Of a stretch of 64,000 nt of DNA, positions 26,883 to 36,550 are shown in pieces. This DNA comes from Vampirovibrionales bacterium. Lineage in GTDB: Bacteria; Cyanobacteriota; Vampirovibrionia; Vampirovibrionales; Vampirovibrionaceae. A model generated the notes under the pieces. That model was not told the origin of the DNA. It saw only the letters and a program-made list of their open reading frames with translations, and ran no database searches. The translations under genes and the position numbers were made by a program. The stretch spans positions 1 to 64,000 of the forward strand of contig JARXAD010000007.1 of assembly GCA_029866025.1 (NCBI GenBank). The letters run 5' to 3'. The first letter of the stretch is position 1. Each line of letters begins with the position of its first letter.

Positions 26883-27488
26883 TTGAGCACCTCTCAGTCG
26901 CTTGTTTCCCAACCGTCTCCTTTGGCCCCCAAGGGTGAGTGGCGTGTTTGGGCCAAACAGAACCGAACCACCCTATTAACGCCTCATCGTTCTCAAGCAT
27001 TGATCGCTCAATGCTTAAGTTGGGAAGGCTTCCTTAAAGCGGATGAGCTTCTCATCACATGGCCCACTGGAGATGAATTGGATGTTCGACCGCTGATTCA
27101 GGCCTTTCAAGGGCTAGTCTATTTGCCGCGTATCACAGGCCCACGCCAAATGGCTTTTCATCAGTTTGAATCAGAAGCCCCTTTGGTTGAAGGGTCTTAT
27201 GGTATTTTGGAGCCTGAGAAAATCGCCCCCCTGTGGCAACCCAACCCAAGGCTACATACCCTGCTGATGGCACCTGCTTTGTGTGTGGATGCCGCCCGTT
27301 ATCGCTTGGGCTACGGGGGCGGTTACTTTGATGCGTGGCTTCACGCGCATCGGCCTTTATTACAAGAGTCTTTAACCGTAGCTTCACTCATCCCATTGGC
27401 ATTGGTGGTGAAACACTTACCCCATGACGACTGGGATCAACGATTGGACACCGTTTTGACTGAAGACGGTGGGGTGGGTAATGCCTGA
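26883..27488 (+). CDS. 5-formyltetrahydrofolate cyclo-ligase
   Basis: This enzyme (MTHFS/YgfA family) returns 5-formyl-THF to the folate pool using ATP. The 201-residue protein has the substrate-site pattern MAFHQFESEAPLVEGSYGILEP and the C-terminal signature PALCVDAARYRLGYGGGYFDAWL. The start is probably TTG 26883 with no clear Shine-Dalgarno. The stop overlaps the start of the TOPRIM gene by 8 nt, implying coupled translation. Confidence 0.92.
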   Translation: MSTSQSLVSQPSPLAPKGEWRVWAKQNRTTLLTPHRSQALIAQCLSWEGFLKADELLITWPTGDELDVRPLIQAFQGLVYLPRITGPRQMAFHQFESEAPLVEGSYGILEPEKIAPLWQPNPRLHTLLMAPALCVDAARYRLGYGGGYFDAWLHAHRPLLQESLTVASLIPLALVVKHLPHDDWDQRLDTVLTEDGGVGNA

Positions 27489-28932
27489 CGAAAACAACCA
27501 CTCATTCAACACGGGCTTTGCCTGTCGTCCGCTGGATGCCGAACGCGCCCACAGCGCCTTGTACAAATTATTACGCCTGTCTCCCCCCGATACCCGCTAT
27601 GGCGAGGCGTTACAGTATCTGGTTCAGTCCCACGCCCTTCAGCCCAAGCAAGATGCCGCTGCCATCAGCCAGTGGAGCTACGCTCAGCTAGCCCAAATCA
27701 CCCGTAATTGGCTATACCCCAACAACAGTCAAGCATTTGAGATAGATGAATGCTTAACCGCCTTGTGGGTATTGGAAGAATTCCAACAATGCCAAGCAAT
27801 CCCTTGGTTGTACGCCATTTCCAACCGTTTGATTACGAACACCGCCTTGCACCAAGCGGCCCCCCATACGGCTTCGGGCCTTCCGTCCACCCCTGGTGAG
27901 ATCAACACCCTTACGCTTCACCAGTGGCTAAAGCGCACCGGCATTGTGTTTTCGCCAACCAATAATTCCACACCTTTGGGAGAAACTCTGGATGAAGCCG
28001 CTCAAACCGCCTTGCTCTCCGTGTATCATCAACATCCATTCCCGTGGAGCGCCTTACTGGAGGCTGTCGCCGCCGCTTCCTCCATTGCCTGCCACCCTTC
28101 GGTACAGCGGTTACAAACCCACTATCAAGCACTCCTAAAAAGTCCACCCGCATCATGGCAACGCCTCTCGTGGCCTCAGCGCGTCGAATACCTTCAAACC
28201 CTTATCAACCCTGCCGTCGACCTTCCCGCTACCTATTCAGAGACAATCGAAACCCTTCCGATGCTCAAAGCCACGCGTTGCAGGCCCATCCGCTGTGTGC
28301 TGCTGGTGGAAGGAACCTCGGAAGTGGTTCTGTTGCCTGCTGTTGCCCACGCGTTGGGCTGTCCCCTTGCTCACCATAAAATTCAACTGGTGGCTGTGGG
28401 AGGAAAATCACTGATGCTGAAAGCCTACCATCAGCTGGCTGGTTTTATCAGCCCACCCATTATTGCGGTGTTGGATGCCGACGGAGCAACCGAGCAGCGC
28501 CACCTTGCAGAAGCCATGGGTAACTCTAATACGAGGGACAGTGCCTTGATTTTACCCGAAGGCACACTGGAAGACGCTTTGAGTGATGCCCTGATTGCCG
28601 AGACTCTCAATCAATACTACGATCCACCCGAACCCCTAACCACCGCCGATATGGCCGCCCGCCGTTGCGCTGGCAAGCACGGAAATCAAACCATTACGGC
28701 CCTAGAAACCCTGTTTAACGATTGGGAATTGGCGTCGCCTCGCAAAGGCAGCCACAAGGGTAAGCAATTTAACAAAGTCGATTTTGCCTATCATGTGGCC
28801 CAAACCTTACTGGCCTCTCCGCCCACAACCTGCGAACAATGGGTTAGCTCCTCACTGGCAGGCTTGATTCATCAGGCAGTAGCCTTGGCCCAACAGGACG
28901 CGTTACCCTTGCCTCAGCAAGGCGCTGAATGA
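27481..28932 (+). CDS. stand-alone OLD-type TOPRIM domain protein
   Basis: The protein has about 483 residues. A helical N-terminal part of 260 residues matches nothing I recognise. Residues about 270-350 form a TOPRIM domain, with the catalytic Glu in CVLLVEGTSEVVLLP (about residue 277) and the DxD acidic pair in AVLDADG (about 330). The tail KGSHKGKQFNKVDFAYHVA has the Lys/His features of OLD nucleases. No ABC ATPase domain is present, unlike OLD and GajA. Start ATG 27481 overlaps the preceding gene; a nuclease is possible but unproven. Confidence 0.7.
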   Translation: MPDENNHSFNTGFACRPLDAERAHSALYKLLRLSPPDTRYGEALQYLVQSHALQPKQDAAAISQWSYAQLAQITRNWLYPNNSQAFEIDECLTALWVLEEFQQCQAIPWLYAISNRLITNTALHQAAPHTASGLPSTPGEINTLTLHQWLKRTGIVFSPTNNSTPLGETLDEAAQTALLSVYHQHPFPWSALLEAVAAASSIACHPSVQRLQTHYQALLKSPPASWQRLSWPQRVEYLQTLINPAVDLPATYSETIETLPMLKATRCRPIRCVLLVEGTSEVVLLPAVAHALGCPLAHHKIQLVAVGGKSLMLKAYHQLAGFISPPIIAVLDADGATEQRHLAEAMGNSNTRDSALILPEGTLEDALSDALIAETLNQYYDPPEPLTTADMAARRCAGKHGNQTITALETLFNDWELASPRKGSHKGKQFNKVDFAYHVAQTLLASPPTTCEQWVSSSLAGLIHQAVALAQQDALPLPQQGAE

Positions 28933-28942
28933 GGAACTTTTT

Positions 28943-29755
28943 ATGCCGAAAGAAACACACTGTGGCCAGTGGCTCAATGGAGCCATTCAGCCCTTAGAAG
29001 AGAGTAGTATTTCCAGGGTTGAGTCGTCTTATTACGGGTACAGTGCCTTTACCAGTTTCCTGTGGCCCTTAGAGCCTCGTTGGTTGGAGGCCCACCTTCA
29101 GCGGGTCACGTCTCACGCGGCACACCTGGGAATGATTGAACCCACCGAGTCATTGGAAGCCTTTCAACACGGCATTGTTCACTGGTTACAAGGTACAAGC
29201 GCTTCACCTTCTGGCTTGTTACGGGTTCGCCTCACCGCTTTCCCCGCTTCCGGTGGCTTAGAGACTTTCTCTAACCAAAAAATCCACACCCAGTGGGTTA
29301 TTCAGGCCATTCCCTACACGTCTCAGGAACAGTCTAAGCCGCTTCAACTGGGGCTGGTACGGTACACCAAGGCCTTGCCCCACATTAAACATGGCAGCTT
29401 GGCAGAGCCCTTTTATTTACGCCGCTTGGCAAAACAGCAAGGCTTGGATGACGTGCTATGGGTGAATGGTGACGATCACATTACCGAAGCCACCAGCGCC
29501 AATGTTTTTTTTGAAACCGTTACTGGCGGCTCTTTGCAATGGGTTACCCCTCCTTTAACGCAATGCTTGGCGGGGATTTGTCGCCAGCAAGTAATGGAAA
29601 ACGCCTTAGTCAAAGGGCAACCCATTATTGAGCGACCCATTGCCCTAGAAGAAATAGGCATCACAGTATGCCGTGGGTTTCTCACCAATGCTATTAAAGG
29701 CATTCAACCCTTTGAGTGCCCTCAACCGTTGCCTTGGGTGATTGCAACCTCATAA
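28943..29755 (+). CDS. class IV PLP-dependent aminotransferase (aminodeoxychorismate lyase or branched-chain type)
   Basis: This 270-residue fold type IV enzyme has its likely PLP lysine in LPHIKHGSLAEPFYLRR, followed by GLDDVLWVNGDDHITEATSANVFF, the family's cofactor-binding stretch. Position after folate cyclo-ligase suggests 4-amino-4-deoxychorismate lyase (PabC) in folate synthesis, but sequence alone also allows branched-chain or D-amino-acid aminotransferase. The GAGGAA ribosome-binding site is 8 nt before the ATG. It is followed by a terminator. Confidence 0.8.
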   Translation: MPKETHCGQWLNGAIQPLEESSISRVESSYYGYSAFTSFLWPLEPRWLEAHLQRVTSHAAHLGMIEPTESLEAFQHGIVHWLQGTSASPSGLLRVRLTAFPASGGLETFSNQKIHTQWVIQAIPYTSQEQSKPLQLGLVRYTKALPHIKHGSLAEPFYLRRLAKQQGLDDVLWVNGDDHITEATSANVFFETVTGGSLQWVTPPLTQCLAGICRQQVMENALVKGQPIIERPIALEEIGITVCRGFLTNAIKGIQPFECPQPLPWVIATS

Positions 29756-32555: not shown

Positions 32556-33800
32556 GTGACAGCCACCTATTACCAACATGTAGCCGACTTACCCACCTTA
32601 AAAATGGCGAACGGCGGTAGACTTGCAAACCTTTCTCTTGAAGGTCAGGCTTGGCTAGACGCTCGTGTAATGACGTCTTCCAGTAATGAATCAACCGTTC
32701 GCCCCAGCCTGTGGTCTGCCTTAACCCCTCCGTCTCCTCAATCCATCTGGCCCACAACCGAAATTATCACCCTAAGCCCCAGTAGCATCAATCGTTACAT
32801 GGCTTGCCCCCGCCAGTTTTTTTACCAGCACGTGTTACGGCTGCCTACCCCAGCCAGCGAAACCCTGTTGCAAGGGCTACTGGTCCATGGGCTGATGGAA
32901 ACCCTCAACCGACAATTCCCCGAATATCCCTACAGTGCCCAACGGCTGCACGATATTTTTAAGCTGTTTATGGCCAACAATGAATCACTACTGAAGGATC
33001 CCAACAGTGGCTTAACTTACGAGCTTTATGAGCAGTGGAACACCTTACCCACCCTTCTCCAAGAGCAACTCTCTCAAGTTATCCCCAACACCATTGATGA
33101 TTTAGAGGCCTCTGGCTACTTTAATCAGACCCCCACAGCTATTTTAAGTGAGCAAAAAATTCACTACACCCACCCATCACTGCCCAACGTGGCTATTACC
33201 GGCGCCCTGGATGCACTCATTGGCTATGAGTCCAATGATCTCACTGATAACAACGACTTGCGCTGGAAGATTGTGGATTACAAAACCGGGCAAACGTCTC
33301 GCTACCGCCAAAGCGATGACAAAGAACAAGCCAGTCTCCTGAAAGCATTGGAGCCCTTGCCCATAAATACGGAGGACGCCTTACCTCTGACCCACACTGA
33401 GCGATTTAAAGACCGCACCAGCCGAAATTATCAAATCCCTTTGTACTATTTGGCTACCCAAGTGGATACGAAGCTTCAGCAAGCACTACACAACCCTCCC
33501 CCTACCGTCGATTCCATTGGCCTGCAAGTATTGCGCCCTAGCTTGGGTGATGGGATTGGTTCGCGCAGCATTTCGGTTTCAGGTACTTCTGTAGAAGCTC
33601 GTTTAGACAGTTGCTTGAGCGACCTACGTCAGTGGATTGTGGAGCCTCTTCAGCAAAGCGATGCCTTGCCCACCGTCACGGGCCTTCACTGCCAGCAATG
33701 CGCCTTTACAGCCATTTGCAATGACCCCAATATTGGCAAAGAGGCCCCGAGGGGGCCTTATGCAAAAAACAAAACAAGCGGAGAAGGGGAAAGCCCATGA
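32556..33800 (+). CDS. PD-(D/E)XK nuclease with AddB-like Fe-S cysteine set
   Basis: This 414-residue protein resembles the C-terminal nuclease domain of AddB/RecB. LSPSSINRYMACPRQFFYQHV opens the domain; catalytic residues are in VHGLMETLN, ITGALDALIGY and WKIVDYKTGQ (D241, K243), and the QhxxY motif is RNYQIPLYYLATQ. Cys84 with Cys379, Cys382 and Cys388 (CQQCAFTAIC) matches the spacing of an AddB-type 4Fe-4S cluster. It lacks the helicase-like part of AddB. GTG start with GGAG 14 nt upstream. The stop overlaps the helicase ATG (ATGA), implying coupling and a joint complex. Confidence 0.85.
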   Translation: MTATYYQHVADLPTLKMANGGRLANLSLEGQAWLDARVMTSSSNESTVRPSLWSALTPPSPQSIWPTTEIITLSPSSINRYMACPRQFFYQHVLRLPTPASETLLQGLLVHGLMETLNRQFPEYPYSAQRLHDIFKLFMANNESLLKDPNSGLTYELYEQWNTLPTLLQEQLSQVIPNTIDDLEASGYFNQTPTAILSEQKIHYTHPSLPNVAITGALDALIGYESNDLTDNNDLRWKIVDYKTGQTSRYRQSDDKEQASLLKALEPLPINTEDALPLTHTERFKDRTSRNYQIPLYYLATQVDTKLQQALHNPPPTVDSIGLQVLRPSLGDGIGSRSISVSGTSVEARLDSCLSDLRQWIVEPLQQSDALPTVTGLHCQQCAFTAICNDPNIGKEAPRGPYAKNKTSGEGESP

Positions 33801-36550
33801 TTTCCCTTCTTACACCCACATTAGAAGTACCTGAATGGGACAAAGACCCTATTTTGGAGCGTTTATTGGAAGGGCTGAATCCAGAGCAACGCCAAACCGT
33901 CATGCATCCCTTTCATCAGGGTGTGCAAGTGCTGGCCGGGGCAGGCACGGGGAAAACGCGGGTTATTACACACCGCTATGTGGGGGCCTTACACCACCTA
34001 CAGCAGCATAATGGCCACGAGCTACCGCCTGAATCCCAAATTTTGGCCGTTACCTTTACAGTCAAAGCCGCCGAAGAAATGAAAGAACGGATTCATGCCC
34101 TGATTGGCCGATTGGGCTTACCTCAGCCCGAAACCCCGATGTGGGTTCATAATTTTCATGGCTATGGGCGGCGATTACTAAAAACCCACGGACACTTACT
34201 GGGCTTTACCGAACACTTTGCGGTGTTAGACACCAACGAGCGAAACCAACACTTGCAAGCCGTGCTAAGGGATTGGGAAGCCAACCGGCTGGACGACTTG
34301 GAAGCCGCTCTGGCTTGGGCACAACTCCCCCTCCATGCCCATGACGTTCTCGCGCTACCGCCTCATGCCCCCACCGATTTTATCCACTGGGTGCGGGCCT
34401 TTCCTCATGTGCTGAACCGGGCCAAATCAGCAGGACTGTCTCCCCAAGCATTTTACGACACGGCACTACTTCAAACCCAACGATTATCCAGCCAAGTTCA
34501 CCATCATCCGGTAACAGAAGCGGACGGGAGCGTGTTTGAGAACAACGAGGCTATGAGCAGTGCTTGGAGCAATCACTGGCGACGTTGGGCACCTGATTCG
34601 TCGTTGTGGTTTGGCAGCGATGATGAACAATCCGCTTATATTGCTCATCGAACCGCCACCCTAAAAAAAGGCGACCCCACCGATTTAGAACCCTATTATG
34701 GCAAACGCTTGGAGTGGCTGAACAAGCAATGGCAGTGGATGCACCAAGGCCAAGCCTTGCAACCCCTCCCCAAAAAAGTGCGCAACACGGTGGAGACAGG
34801 CGAATTGGCTTCTTTGGAGACCTTGGCCACCACCCACGCCGATGAACAAACACTCATTGGCCTAATGGCCGGCTTGTACGCCGTGTACCAATACCGCCTG
34901 TACCAAGCCAACACCTGCGATTTTGATGATCTCATTTTAAAACCACTGGAGCTGCTTCAAAACCACCCAACGTTGCAGACCCAAATCCAGCAGCAGTTTC
35001 AGCTGGTGATTGTGGATGAATTTCAGGATACCAACGGCAGCCAACTGGCCTTAATGCGGGAAACCATCCGCCCTGACACTACCAACCTCACAGTGGTGGG
35101 GGATATCAAGCAATCCATTTACGGCTTTAGAGACGCTCAGCCCGACAACATGCACTGGATCTTTTCGGGCCGAAGTGACGTTACCACGGTGCATCTCACT
35201 CAAAACTACCGTAGCCACGCCCCCATTGTAGCGTTAGCCAACGCCGTGGCCGATGGCTTAAATTTACCCAACACCCACGCCTTAAGCGCCGCCTTACAGA
35301 CCGAACAGCCCCCCCCACCCGTAACGCACGTAACGCTAGAAGACGCCGACGCCCAAAAAAGCAAAGTGGGCACGGTACGAGATACGGAAGCCCAGTGGGT
35401 GGCTTCCGAAATCCAGCGGCTCCACACTGAAGAAGGTTTACCTTACAGCGATGTAGCCATTCTGGTGAAAGACAACACCAAAGCCAAGCGCATGGCCGCC
35501 GCACTCAAAACCGCGGGTATTCCTAGCGATCGCCAAGAATCCTTGGCCGAATGGCTGAACACGCCGGAACTAAAGAATATTCGGGCTCTGCTAAAAATAC
35601 TAGCCCGCCTCAACGACGACGTGGCTTGGGTTCGCTTGTTAGAACAACGCCTGAATCACCGACAGTTGCGCATCCTTTCTCAGGCGTTAAATACTCTGCG
35701 CAATGGGCATGAAAAAACCACGGGCAGTAAGGTAAATCAACCTCATTGGATTCATGTATTGCTTCAGCTGGGGAATTTTGAGGTTTGCCCAGAGCTTTCC
35801 TTGCCTGTTCGCGAAGCCTTGCTCGATCTTGCTCAGCAAATCATGCAGGCCCGCAGCCTGCTGAATCGGAGATCGTGGACCACTCTTGTGTGGGTATTGG
35901 CCCAGCACCTAGGCTTATTTGACGCGAGCCCAGACGATAGTTTTCCTTTAACCGAGCCCGTTAGCATTGAGGCCGTTGGCAAATGGCTGCATAAGCTGAG
36001 TGTGCAAAAAGCCACCCGTAGTATGAGCTTACGAACCCTGTGCGAGTGGATTGATACCCAAGCCACCACGGCCCACCAAGAGCTAGCCGACGCTGAAGCC
36101 GAATTAGAGCCCTTAACAGTCAAGATTTTGACGATGCATGCGGCCAAGGGGTTGGAATTTCCCGTGGTGTTTGTATCGTGCACCGATAGCTTTGCCCCAA
36201 GACCTCGCACCACTAAAGTGGACTTGGAAATTCAATACCCAGCCTTTTTGCTGGGAGAATCGCCCACCGCACTGCCGGGTTTTGGGTTGTATTTAACGGA
36301 GCACCACCGGTTTTGGAGCAGCTCAGGCTCTATGGCAACTCTCAAGCGCCGCTTGGCTGATAATTTATGGTTAAAGCCCCGCGCCAAGGCCGAAACCCAA
36401 CGCCTGTTTTACGTGGCCATTACTCGTGCTCAACAGCGTTTGTATTTGTTACGCAGTCCCCAGTCGCCGGAGTGGACTAACCCGGAAACACTGCTGCCCT
36501 CCTCACAACACAGCACGTTACTCAACACTATCACCGTGGCTTTAGAGTGA
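33797..36550 (+). CDS. UvrD/AddA-like superfamily 1 DNA helicase
   Basis: This 917-residue helicase has the Q-motif LNPEQRQTV, Walker A AGAGTGKT (47-54), FTVKAAEEMKERI (motif Ia), Walker B LVIVDEFQDTN, VVGDIKQSIYGFRDA (motif III), LTMHAAKGLEFPVVF (motif V) and FYVAITRAQQRLYLL (motif VI). A long insertion of about 300 residues lies between motifs Ia and II. It has no C-terminal nuclease domain; that function is likely supplied by the coupled upstream gene. By inference the two form an AddAB/RecBCD-like end-processing enzyme. It is convergent with mutY, 5 nt apart. Confidence 0.88.
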   Translation: MISLLTPTLEVPEWDKDPILERLLEGLNPEQRQTVMHPFHQGVQVLAGAGTGKTRVITHRYVGALHHLQQHNGHELPPESQILAVTFTVKAAEEMKERIHALIGRLGLPQPETPMWVHNFHGYGRRLLKTHGHLLGFTEHFAVLDTNERNQHLQAVLRDWEANRLDDLEAALAWAQLPLHAHDVLALPPHAPTDFIHWVRAFPHVLNRAKSAGLSPQAFYDTALLQTQRLSSQVHHHPVTEADGSVFENNEAMSSAWSNHWRRWAPDSSLWFGSDDEQSAYIAHRTATLKKGDPTDLEPYYGKRLEWLNKQWQWMHQGQALQPLPKKVRNTVETGELASLETLATTHADEQTLIGLMAGLYAVYQYRLYQANTCDFDDLILKPLELLQNHPTLQTQIQQQFQLVIVDEFQDTNGSQLALMRETIRPDTTNLTVVGDIKQSIYGFRDAQPDNMHWIFSGRSDVTTVHLTQNYRSHAPIVALANAVADGLNLPNTHALSAALQTEQPPPPVTHVTLEDADAQKSKVGTVRDTEAQWVASEIQRLHTEEGLPYSDVAILVKDNTKAKRMAAALKTAGIPSDRQESLAEWLNTPELKNIRALLKILARLNDDVAWVRLLEQRLNHRQLRILSQALNTLRNGHEKTTGSKVNQPHWIHVLLQLGNFEVCPELSLPVREALLDLAQQIMQARSLLNRRSWTTLVWVLAQHLGLFDASPDDSFPLTEPVSIEAVGKWLHKLSVQKATRSMSLRTLCEWIDTQATTAHQELADAEAELEPLTVKILTMHAAKGLEFPVVFVSCTDSFAPRPRTTKVDLEIQYPAFLLGESPTALPGFGLYLTEHHRFWSSSGSMATLKRRLADNLWLKPRAKAETQRLFYVAITRAQQRLYLLRSPQSPEWTNPETLLPSSQHSTLLNTITVALE

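Follow-up and report, generated by a model that had tools for sequence, protein, structure and literature searches.

The OLD family is defined by an ABC ATPase combined with a TOPRIM domain, and the portions of two sources available to us (PMC10568477, PMC12796447) describe its bacterial nucleases mainly as defence effectors whose ATPase is either attached or paired. In Bp OLD, the accessible text of PMC6755086 assigns metal A to E400, D455 and D457, metal B to E404, T506 and E508, and the role of catalytic lysine to K562, and it reports that the ATPase region is dispensable for DNA cutting. For archaeal Cran1, the accessible text of PMC12796447 reports that the nuclease region is inactive without its ATPase and that the gene was shown not to be deletable. 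Here, we describe a gene from a Vampirovibrionales bacterium whose product has the putative catalytic half of such an enzyme and no ABC ATPase. It lies in the window, by which we mean the whole 64,000-nucleotide stretch of DNA analysed, together with two neighbours and the following parts:

26883..27488, forward strand: 5-formyltetrahydrofolate cyclo-ligase, upstream neighbour (PF01812, 7.8e-24)
27481..28932, forward strand: ATPase-free OLD-type TOPRIM protein gene, 483 aa from ATG (ORF, Pfam, alignment)
27481..28275, forward strand: N-terminal helical region, aa 1-265, matching no known family (Pfam, NCBIfam, PDB sequence, model)
28282..28560, forward strand: TOPRIM core, aa 268-360 (Pfam, alignment, PDB sequence match, predicted fold)
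28309-28311, forward strand: E277, putative metal ligand in the TOPRIM core
28321-28323, forward strand: E281, putative metal ligand in the TOPRIM core
28474-28476, forward strand: D332, putative metal ligand in the TOPRIM core
28480-28482, forward strand: D334, putative metal ligand in the TOPRIM core
28561..28911, forward strand: C-terminal helical part of the OLD catalytic region, aa 361-477 (alignment, predicted fold)
28564-28572, forward strand: T362-x-E364, in the C-terminal helical part
28774-28776, forward strand: conserved lysine K432, in the C-terminal helical part
28943..29755, forward strand: class IV aminotransferase, PabC-like, downstream neighbour (Pfam; kept in 11/11 f1/f2 loci)

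The OLD-type gene at 27481-28932 is a real gene. Its start overlaps the folate cyclo-ligase gene, as the original prediction had noted; measured from the ATG to the cyclo-ligase stop at 27488 the overlap is 8 bp, and a GTG 12 bp upstream of the ATG offers an alternative start. Searching its own genome with the window protein returned a single match, the protein itself.

Residues 268-477 contain a complete OLD-type TOPRIM and helical catalytic region. The Pfam family PF20469 (OLD-like_TOPRIM) matches residues 271-334 at 3.3e-11, over its cut-off, and at E 0.1 it matches all 29 members of our first alignment; DUF3226 matches 10 of the 29 at the same threshold (in the window protein over the TOPRIM, E 0.08), and eight other Pfam families appear in one of the 29 members each, the best at 0.0018. 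NCBIfam at E 0.1 gives no family for the window protein, hence no recorded function, and among the 29 members it gives seven stray matches in single members (best 0.0043). A PADLOC search matched 29 models at E ≤ 1; the 25 listed comprise GajA/Old models and one mad4, over residues 248-401. In the 29-row alignment (A1), E277, G278, E281, P286, G307, G308, D332, D334, E364, D365, F430, K432 and A436 are kept in every row. Both the OLD TOPRIM glutamate with its DxD aspartates (E277, D332, D334) and the putative second metal site and lysine (E281, E364, K432) are invariant in 29/29 rows of A1 and 56/56 rows of a second alignment (A4). Position 362 is E in 26 rows, A in 2 and T in 1 of A1, and E in 55 rows and T in 1, the window, of A4. 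The 56 rows of A4 were drawn from the window and named loci. Of the best 80 relatives, L083, L088, L107 and L151 were left out because their reading frames are poor or interrupted, L090 and L148 because theirs are short, and another 19 loci were likewise not included. Conservation of the putative catalytic residues is far from chance. Window residues were equated with those of Bp OLD by motif spacing and fold rather than by residue-by-residue alignment. The TOPRIM residues that the original prediction had recognized in LLVEG...LDADG are therefore present, being kept in all 29 aligned sequences, whereas its OLD-like Lys/His segment stands only in part: RKGSHKGKQ is an insertion local to the window protein, and it is the adjoining F-x-K-x-x-[FL]-A, with K432, that is conserved.

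Structural comparison points to the same relatives. Two PDB sequences fall below E 0.01, both of them class 2 OLD catalytic regions (6njv, 1.3e-8; 6nk8, 5e-6). AlphaFold2 gave models of the window protein (pLDDT 81.8, pTM 0.83) and of a 329-residue Gastranaerophilus member (pLDDT 93.3, pTM 0.88), for both of which Foldseek placed Xanthomonas and Burkholderia OLD at the top, with best E values of 6.3e-4 and 5.0e-6, respectively. In VIA-align the best match is 6nk8 (Burkholderia OLD) for the window model (Z 14.4, 172 aligned, rmsd 3.1) and again for the Gastranaerophilus model (Z 15.4, 170 aligned, rmsd 3.1), so the OLD C-terminal fold is present in the predicted models. Next for the window model come Xanthomonas OLD, Thermus OLD (10.2), a PARIS chain (10.0), GajA (at most 9.5) and PH0156 (9.4); the PARIS chain is absent from the list obtained with the Gastranaerophilus model. 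Response regulators, lumazine synthase and similar folds, with Z of about 7-8 in fold searches, represent common arrangements and were set aside.

The N-terminal half is helical in both models and has no credible match to a known domain in Pfam, NCBIfam or PDB sequences. Matches of this region in Pfam and NCBIfam are confined to single members (best Pfam E 0.0059), those to TRPC6 helices (E 0.045) and EBP2 (E 0.33) among PDB sequences are taken as chance or noise, and TOPRIM dominates the matches in fold searches of the whole models. The Walker A motif is absent from all ATPase-free forms (0/29 in A1, 0/56 in A4) and present in 20/20 long OLD-type proteins retrieved from the same class, which served as a positive control; no AAA family occurs among the Pfam matches of the 29 members. 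The proposal of an OLD-type TOPRIM protein whose first 260 or so residues are not an ABC ATPase is borne out on these points, and the homology search suggested for that part recognized no known domain by sequence. The N-terminal half spans 265 aa in the window protein and 143-163 aa in the nine rows from f6; across all 29 rows the range is 71-310 aa, with start codons unsettled for most rows. The best conserved element, at aa 29-33, has the consensus RLxRF and is degenerate (KLLRL) in the window; in A4, 54/56 rows have R at position 29, and at position 32 there is R (51 rows) or K (5 rows). The N-terminal half has a median pI of 8.65 and the catalytic half one of 5.4; for the N-terminal half of the window protein the pI is 5.9.

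The ATPase-free gene is widespread within one bacterial class. NCBI taxonomy places Vampirovibrio chlorellavorus in Candidatus Melainabacteria, Vampirovibriophyceae, Vampirovibrionales, and we take the class of the window's order to be Vampirovibrionia. A single-protein search matched 33/58 genomes, with one match each. A profile search gave matches in all 18 genomes of the window's order, in G017 to a fragment only, and in 118/146 genomes of the class (Melainabacteria/Vampirovibrionia), one of the 118 only via ATPase-bearing OLD proteins; where a single class genome gave extra profile matches, these often seem to be another part of one gene. All 20 listed of the 28 genomes missed by the profile belong to f5, f7 and f8, three families of the class in which the profile did not find the ATPase-free gene. 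The lone f5 profile match (G029, 6.3e-7) lies in a genome in which the OLD-type ORFs are long ones that carry an ATPase. Among the matches listed, PF20469 occurs in 70/72 genomes of f1-f4, f6 and f9, missing G017 and G093, and in 2/25 genomes of f5, f7 and f8, namely G029 and G045, the latter without a profile match. As a separate observation, the gene escapes both the profile and PF20469 in G093, a 99%-complete f6 genome, where loss is possible.

OLD proteins with an ATPase are present in the same genomes only as additional copies, scattered in their occurrence. Besides the ATPase-free orthologues there are 24 PF20469 matches, 20 of which were retrieved; the four left out are G012:C165 (202 aa), G008:C191 (492 aa), G089:C9 (538 aa) and G045:C56 (427 aa). 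The window's own genome encodes, at L178 787-2523 (G000:C13), a second protein of 578 aa with an AAA ATPase and, by eye, a TOPRIM-like segment (WVEGPSD...IIIDSD); it adjoins an ORF that resembles gyrB by eye.

A 194-genome phylum sample gave three matches outside the class, all weak (1.8e-8 to 1.8e-7), and none were found in viral contigs or plasmids. A scan of genome contigs found nothing with the single protein and 321 matches with a profile of 10 relatives; the best 80 of the 321, used as loci, are labelled Melainabacteria (52), Cyanobacteriota (2), Clostridia (1) or carry no phylum label (25), and the Clostridia-labelled locus, from an uncultured bin, is probably mislabelled. A single phage record gave a match, to a relative (L154; 30.5% identity over 37% of the query) in GenBank MW495066.1, deposited as Microcystis phage MaAM05 (273,876 bp). 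Between 250882 and 263370 of that record, panB, a gluconeogenesis factor, pxpA and guaD surround the OLD-type relative, the gene order and sizes resemble by eye those of Vampirovibrionales loci L055-L058, and the record looks like a piece of bacterial chromosome deposited as phage.

Phylogenetic trees of the ATPase-free forms agree for the most part with family relationships. In the full-length tree, f2, f3 (78/88), f4 and f6 each form one group and f1 is split in two, for a total of four label changes, the least possible, with f1 needing two. The window protein sits on a long branch and, together with G001, apart from the other f1 rows, on a weak branch (64/49) where long branches meet. In the TOPRIM-only tree, which took in 16 of 21 long proteins (L159, L166, L173, L174 and own-genome C13 had no usable domain match), a 97/95 branch separates the 29 ATPase-free forms from the long ones with one exception, the long row L167, which falls inside the short group on a branch of 3.08; a single clade of short forms is not rejected by the AU test (p 0.40), and when L167 is omitted the 29 short forms are one group (98/96). 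All 16 rows of the window's order fall together (99/94). This grouping, set against the scatter of ATPase-bearing copies, points to a single origin of the ATPase-free form and to its being passed on vertically for the most part. Most likely, the form would have arisen once, by ATPase loss or replacement before the carrying families diverged, and the distribution and trees suggest that it was then inherited as one chromosomal copy.

Gene neighbourhoods vary between families. The aminotransferase begins 10 bp after the OLD-type stop and is found downstream in 11/11 f1 and f2 loci and in 0/10 others; all of its NCBIfam matches, including aminodeoxychorismate lyase, are below cut-offs, so the PabC identity is a guess. 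The cyclo-ligase neighbours the OLD-type gene in only 2/21 loci, the window and G001. The coupling to folate metabolism that had been proposed for this gene is accordingly weak, and as a general feature we reject it. The absence of an ATPase or helicase gene adjoining the window gene, also part of the original prediction, extends across the sample: Walker A-like strings occur in 2 of 83 flanking ORFs (up to two on each side, 21 loci), each in one locus, one being an 868-aa ORF on the opposite strand and the other a small membrane protein in which the string looks like chance. Further downstream in the window (32556-36550), 3.6 kb away and with genes between, a PDDEXK_1 nuclease gene overlaps a UvrD-type helicase gene that starts 4.9 kb past the OLD-type stop codon. 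This pair, perhaps AddAB-like by resemblance, has no blastp match at 1e-6 among the ORFs of the 20 other loci and was dropped as a candidate partner. In f4 and f9, a gene for a small protein that looks membrane-like by eye lies directly 3' in 5/5 loci (L069-L073; for example L069 8713-9141), which it overlaps at the end of the OLD-type gene in each of the four f4 loci and follows after 4 bp in the f9 locus; in L069, L071 and L073 the protein has no Pfam match. Other annotated neighbours, in a sample, include a RimI-type acetyltransferase, BioY, MgtC, MATE, a 5'-nucleotidase, flagellar genes and several without a family; among them, no gene for repair or replication is conserved next to the OLD-type gene. 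The gene context gives no information on substrate and bears no likeness to a defence island.

We consider the window protein probably a stand-alone OLD-type enzyme that cuts nucleic acid, judging from its sequence and predicted models. To the whole of our main explanation, a single-gene, ATP-independent OLD-type nuclease, inherited once, that does housekeeping on chromosomal DNA, we assign a probability of roughly 0.5. As conservation and predicted fold suggest, the C-terminal TOPRIM and helical region would bind two Mg or Mn ions, at a site A formed by E277, D332 and D334 and a site B formed by E281, T/E362 and E364, with K432 stabilising the transition state, and would cut the phosphodiester backbone without ATP. 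The N-terminal helical region may replace the ABC ATPase and would probably serve in substrate binding and/or assembly, and the most likely job for the enzyme would be the processing of repair, replication or recombination intermediates. ATP-independence is plausible given the dispensable ATPase region of Bp OLD, but it is not assured, given the inactivity of the Cran1 nuclease region without its ATPase. A housekeeping job is probable because most sampled genomes of the class hold one inherited copy rather than a patchy set; since three families and the 99%-complete G093 are without the gene, it is not needed everywhere. Against the main explanation stand the long branch of the window protein, the split of f1 in the full-length tree, the degenerate N-terminal motif of the window protein, its N-terminal pI of 5.9 and the lack of a conserved repair or replication neighbour. 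RecR was detected in 53/56 genomes and RuvC in 53/56 at E 1e-5 (46 over its cut-off), in carriers and gene-free families alike, and thus no displaced function was found; we rejected replacement of RecR, RuvC or RNase M5 by the OLD-type gene, there being no complementary pattern in the 56 genomes.

The alternative that survives best, though we regard it as doubtful, keeps the same protein and catalysis and makes the substrate structured RNA, in rRNA or tRNA processing, as with RNase M5 or AriB. The accessible text of PMC6755086 describes the OLD active-site layout as common to RNase M5, and that of PMC12409363 describes AriB, the PARIS TOPRIM nuclease, as cutting tRNA by two-metal chemistry; the window model aligns to PARIS chain 8ux9_A (Z 10.0, 177 aligned, rmsd 4.1), and most members have a basic N-terminal region. 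RNase M5 (TIGR00334) is over its cut-off in 0/56 genomes, with two weak matches, yet it is missing equally from gene-free families, which leaves no replacement pattern, and the nearest sequences and folds are those of DNA-cutting class 2 OLD.

An anti-phage effector whose ATPase or sensor is encoded elsewhere, as with the separate AriA in PARIS, is unlikely. The PADLOC matches to GajA/Old models and one mad4 are compatible with it, as are other AAA ATPases in the window's own genome and the link between reviewed bacterial OLD classes and phage defence drawn in the accessible text of PMC10568477. However, the gene is inherited and near-universal in six families (70/72 genomes, among the matches listed), plasmids and viral contigs yielded no copies, the annotated neighbours in the sample are metabolic, transport or unknown genes, no ATPase adjoins it among the 83 flanking ORFs of 21 loci, and the one own-genome OLD-type ATPase that was read, C13, bears, by eye, its own TOPRIM-like segment. 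Distribution, neighbours and the lack of mobile copies found led us to reject a defence system as the main explanation, and the original view of a defence-type OLD missing its partner gives way to that of a gene inherited in most of its lineage (18/18 genomes of the order, 118/146 of the class). It is highly improbable that the protein is structural, or weak in catalysis, and uses its TOPRIM for binding only: the sequence outside the active site does diverge fast, the other alignment rows being 19-29% identical to the window protein, but catalytic positions kept in members that differ elsewhere are the opposite of what a decaying enzyme would display.

Returning to the proposed housekeeping nuclease, we call this form of OLD-type nuclease, which has no ATPase and is kept in most of a bacterial class, new; no earlier description of such a family was found in a literature search made without most subscription journals and without bioRxiv. 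A class that keeps an inherited ATPase-free copy would show that the OLD catalytic module can be domesticated, perhaps also that it is able to run without ATP control, and genomes that hold both ATPase-bearing and ATPase-free OLD proteins would provide a ready comparison for the role of the ATPase.

Among known systems, the best PDB match to the window protein, by sequence and fold, is class 2 OLD/GajA (B. pseudomallei and X. campestris OLD, B. cereus GajA), with which it shares the TOPRIM and helical region, the putative metal ligands and the lysine. It differs in having neither the N-terminal ABC ATPase nor an adjoining gene for the UvrD-type helicase GajB, and in being encoded by an inherited lineage gene, whereas theirs is a patchy defence gene. 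The window protein fails the OLD family proper by architecture, and its sequence and predicted fold indicate that it should work like the catalytic half. In AriB of PARIS (class 4 OLD), too, the polypeptide with the OLD-type TOPRIM includes no ATPase, but AriB is paired with an adjoining AriA ATPase, and no such gene adjoins the window gene or is conserved next door elsewhere. PH0156 (2p62), an archaeal TOPRIM protein with a 241-residue chain, shares the TOPRIM and helical region (Z 9.4, 178 aligned); it aligns from its first residue, which leaves no room for an N-terminal region of the window type. We take PH0156 to belong to DUF3226, and the literature search found no function for PH0156 or DUF3226 Toprim proteins. 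RNase M5 has a related active-site geometry, going by the accessible text of PMC6755086. According to the portion of PMC12796447 available, Cran1, the class 5 OLD of Sulfolobales, is likewise lineage-wide and apparently outside defence, has E-x-E at metal site B, and has a predicted membrane protein gene in its operon, a likeness found here in f4 and f9 only (5/5 loci); it differs in being archaeal and in keeping an ABC ATPase that it needs for nicking. We tentatively entertain, at somewhat under even odds, the further idea that, in the ancestor of the lineages that carry the gene, a defence nuclease of the OLD type exchanged its ABC ATPase for a new helical domain and became an ATP-independent core enzyme that maintains the chromosome; this enzyme would be required in most carriers and would constitute a further OLD class and the bacterial counterpart of Cran1. 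In its broader form, as a domesticated, lineage-wide OLD-type nuclease, the window protein is probably a bacterial parallel to archaeal Cran1.
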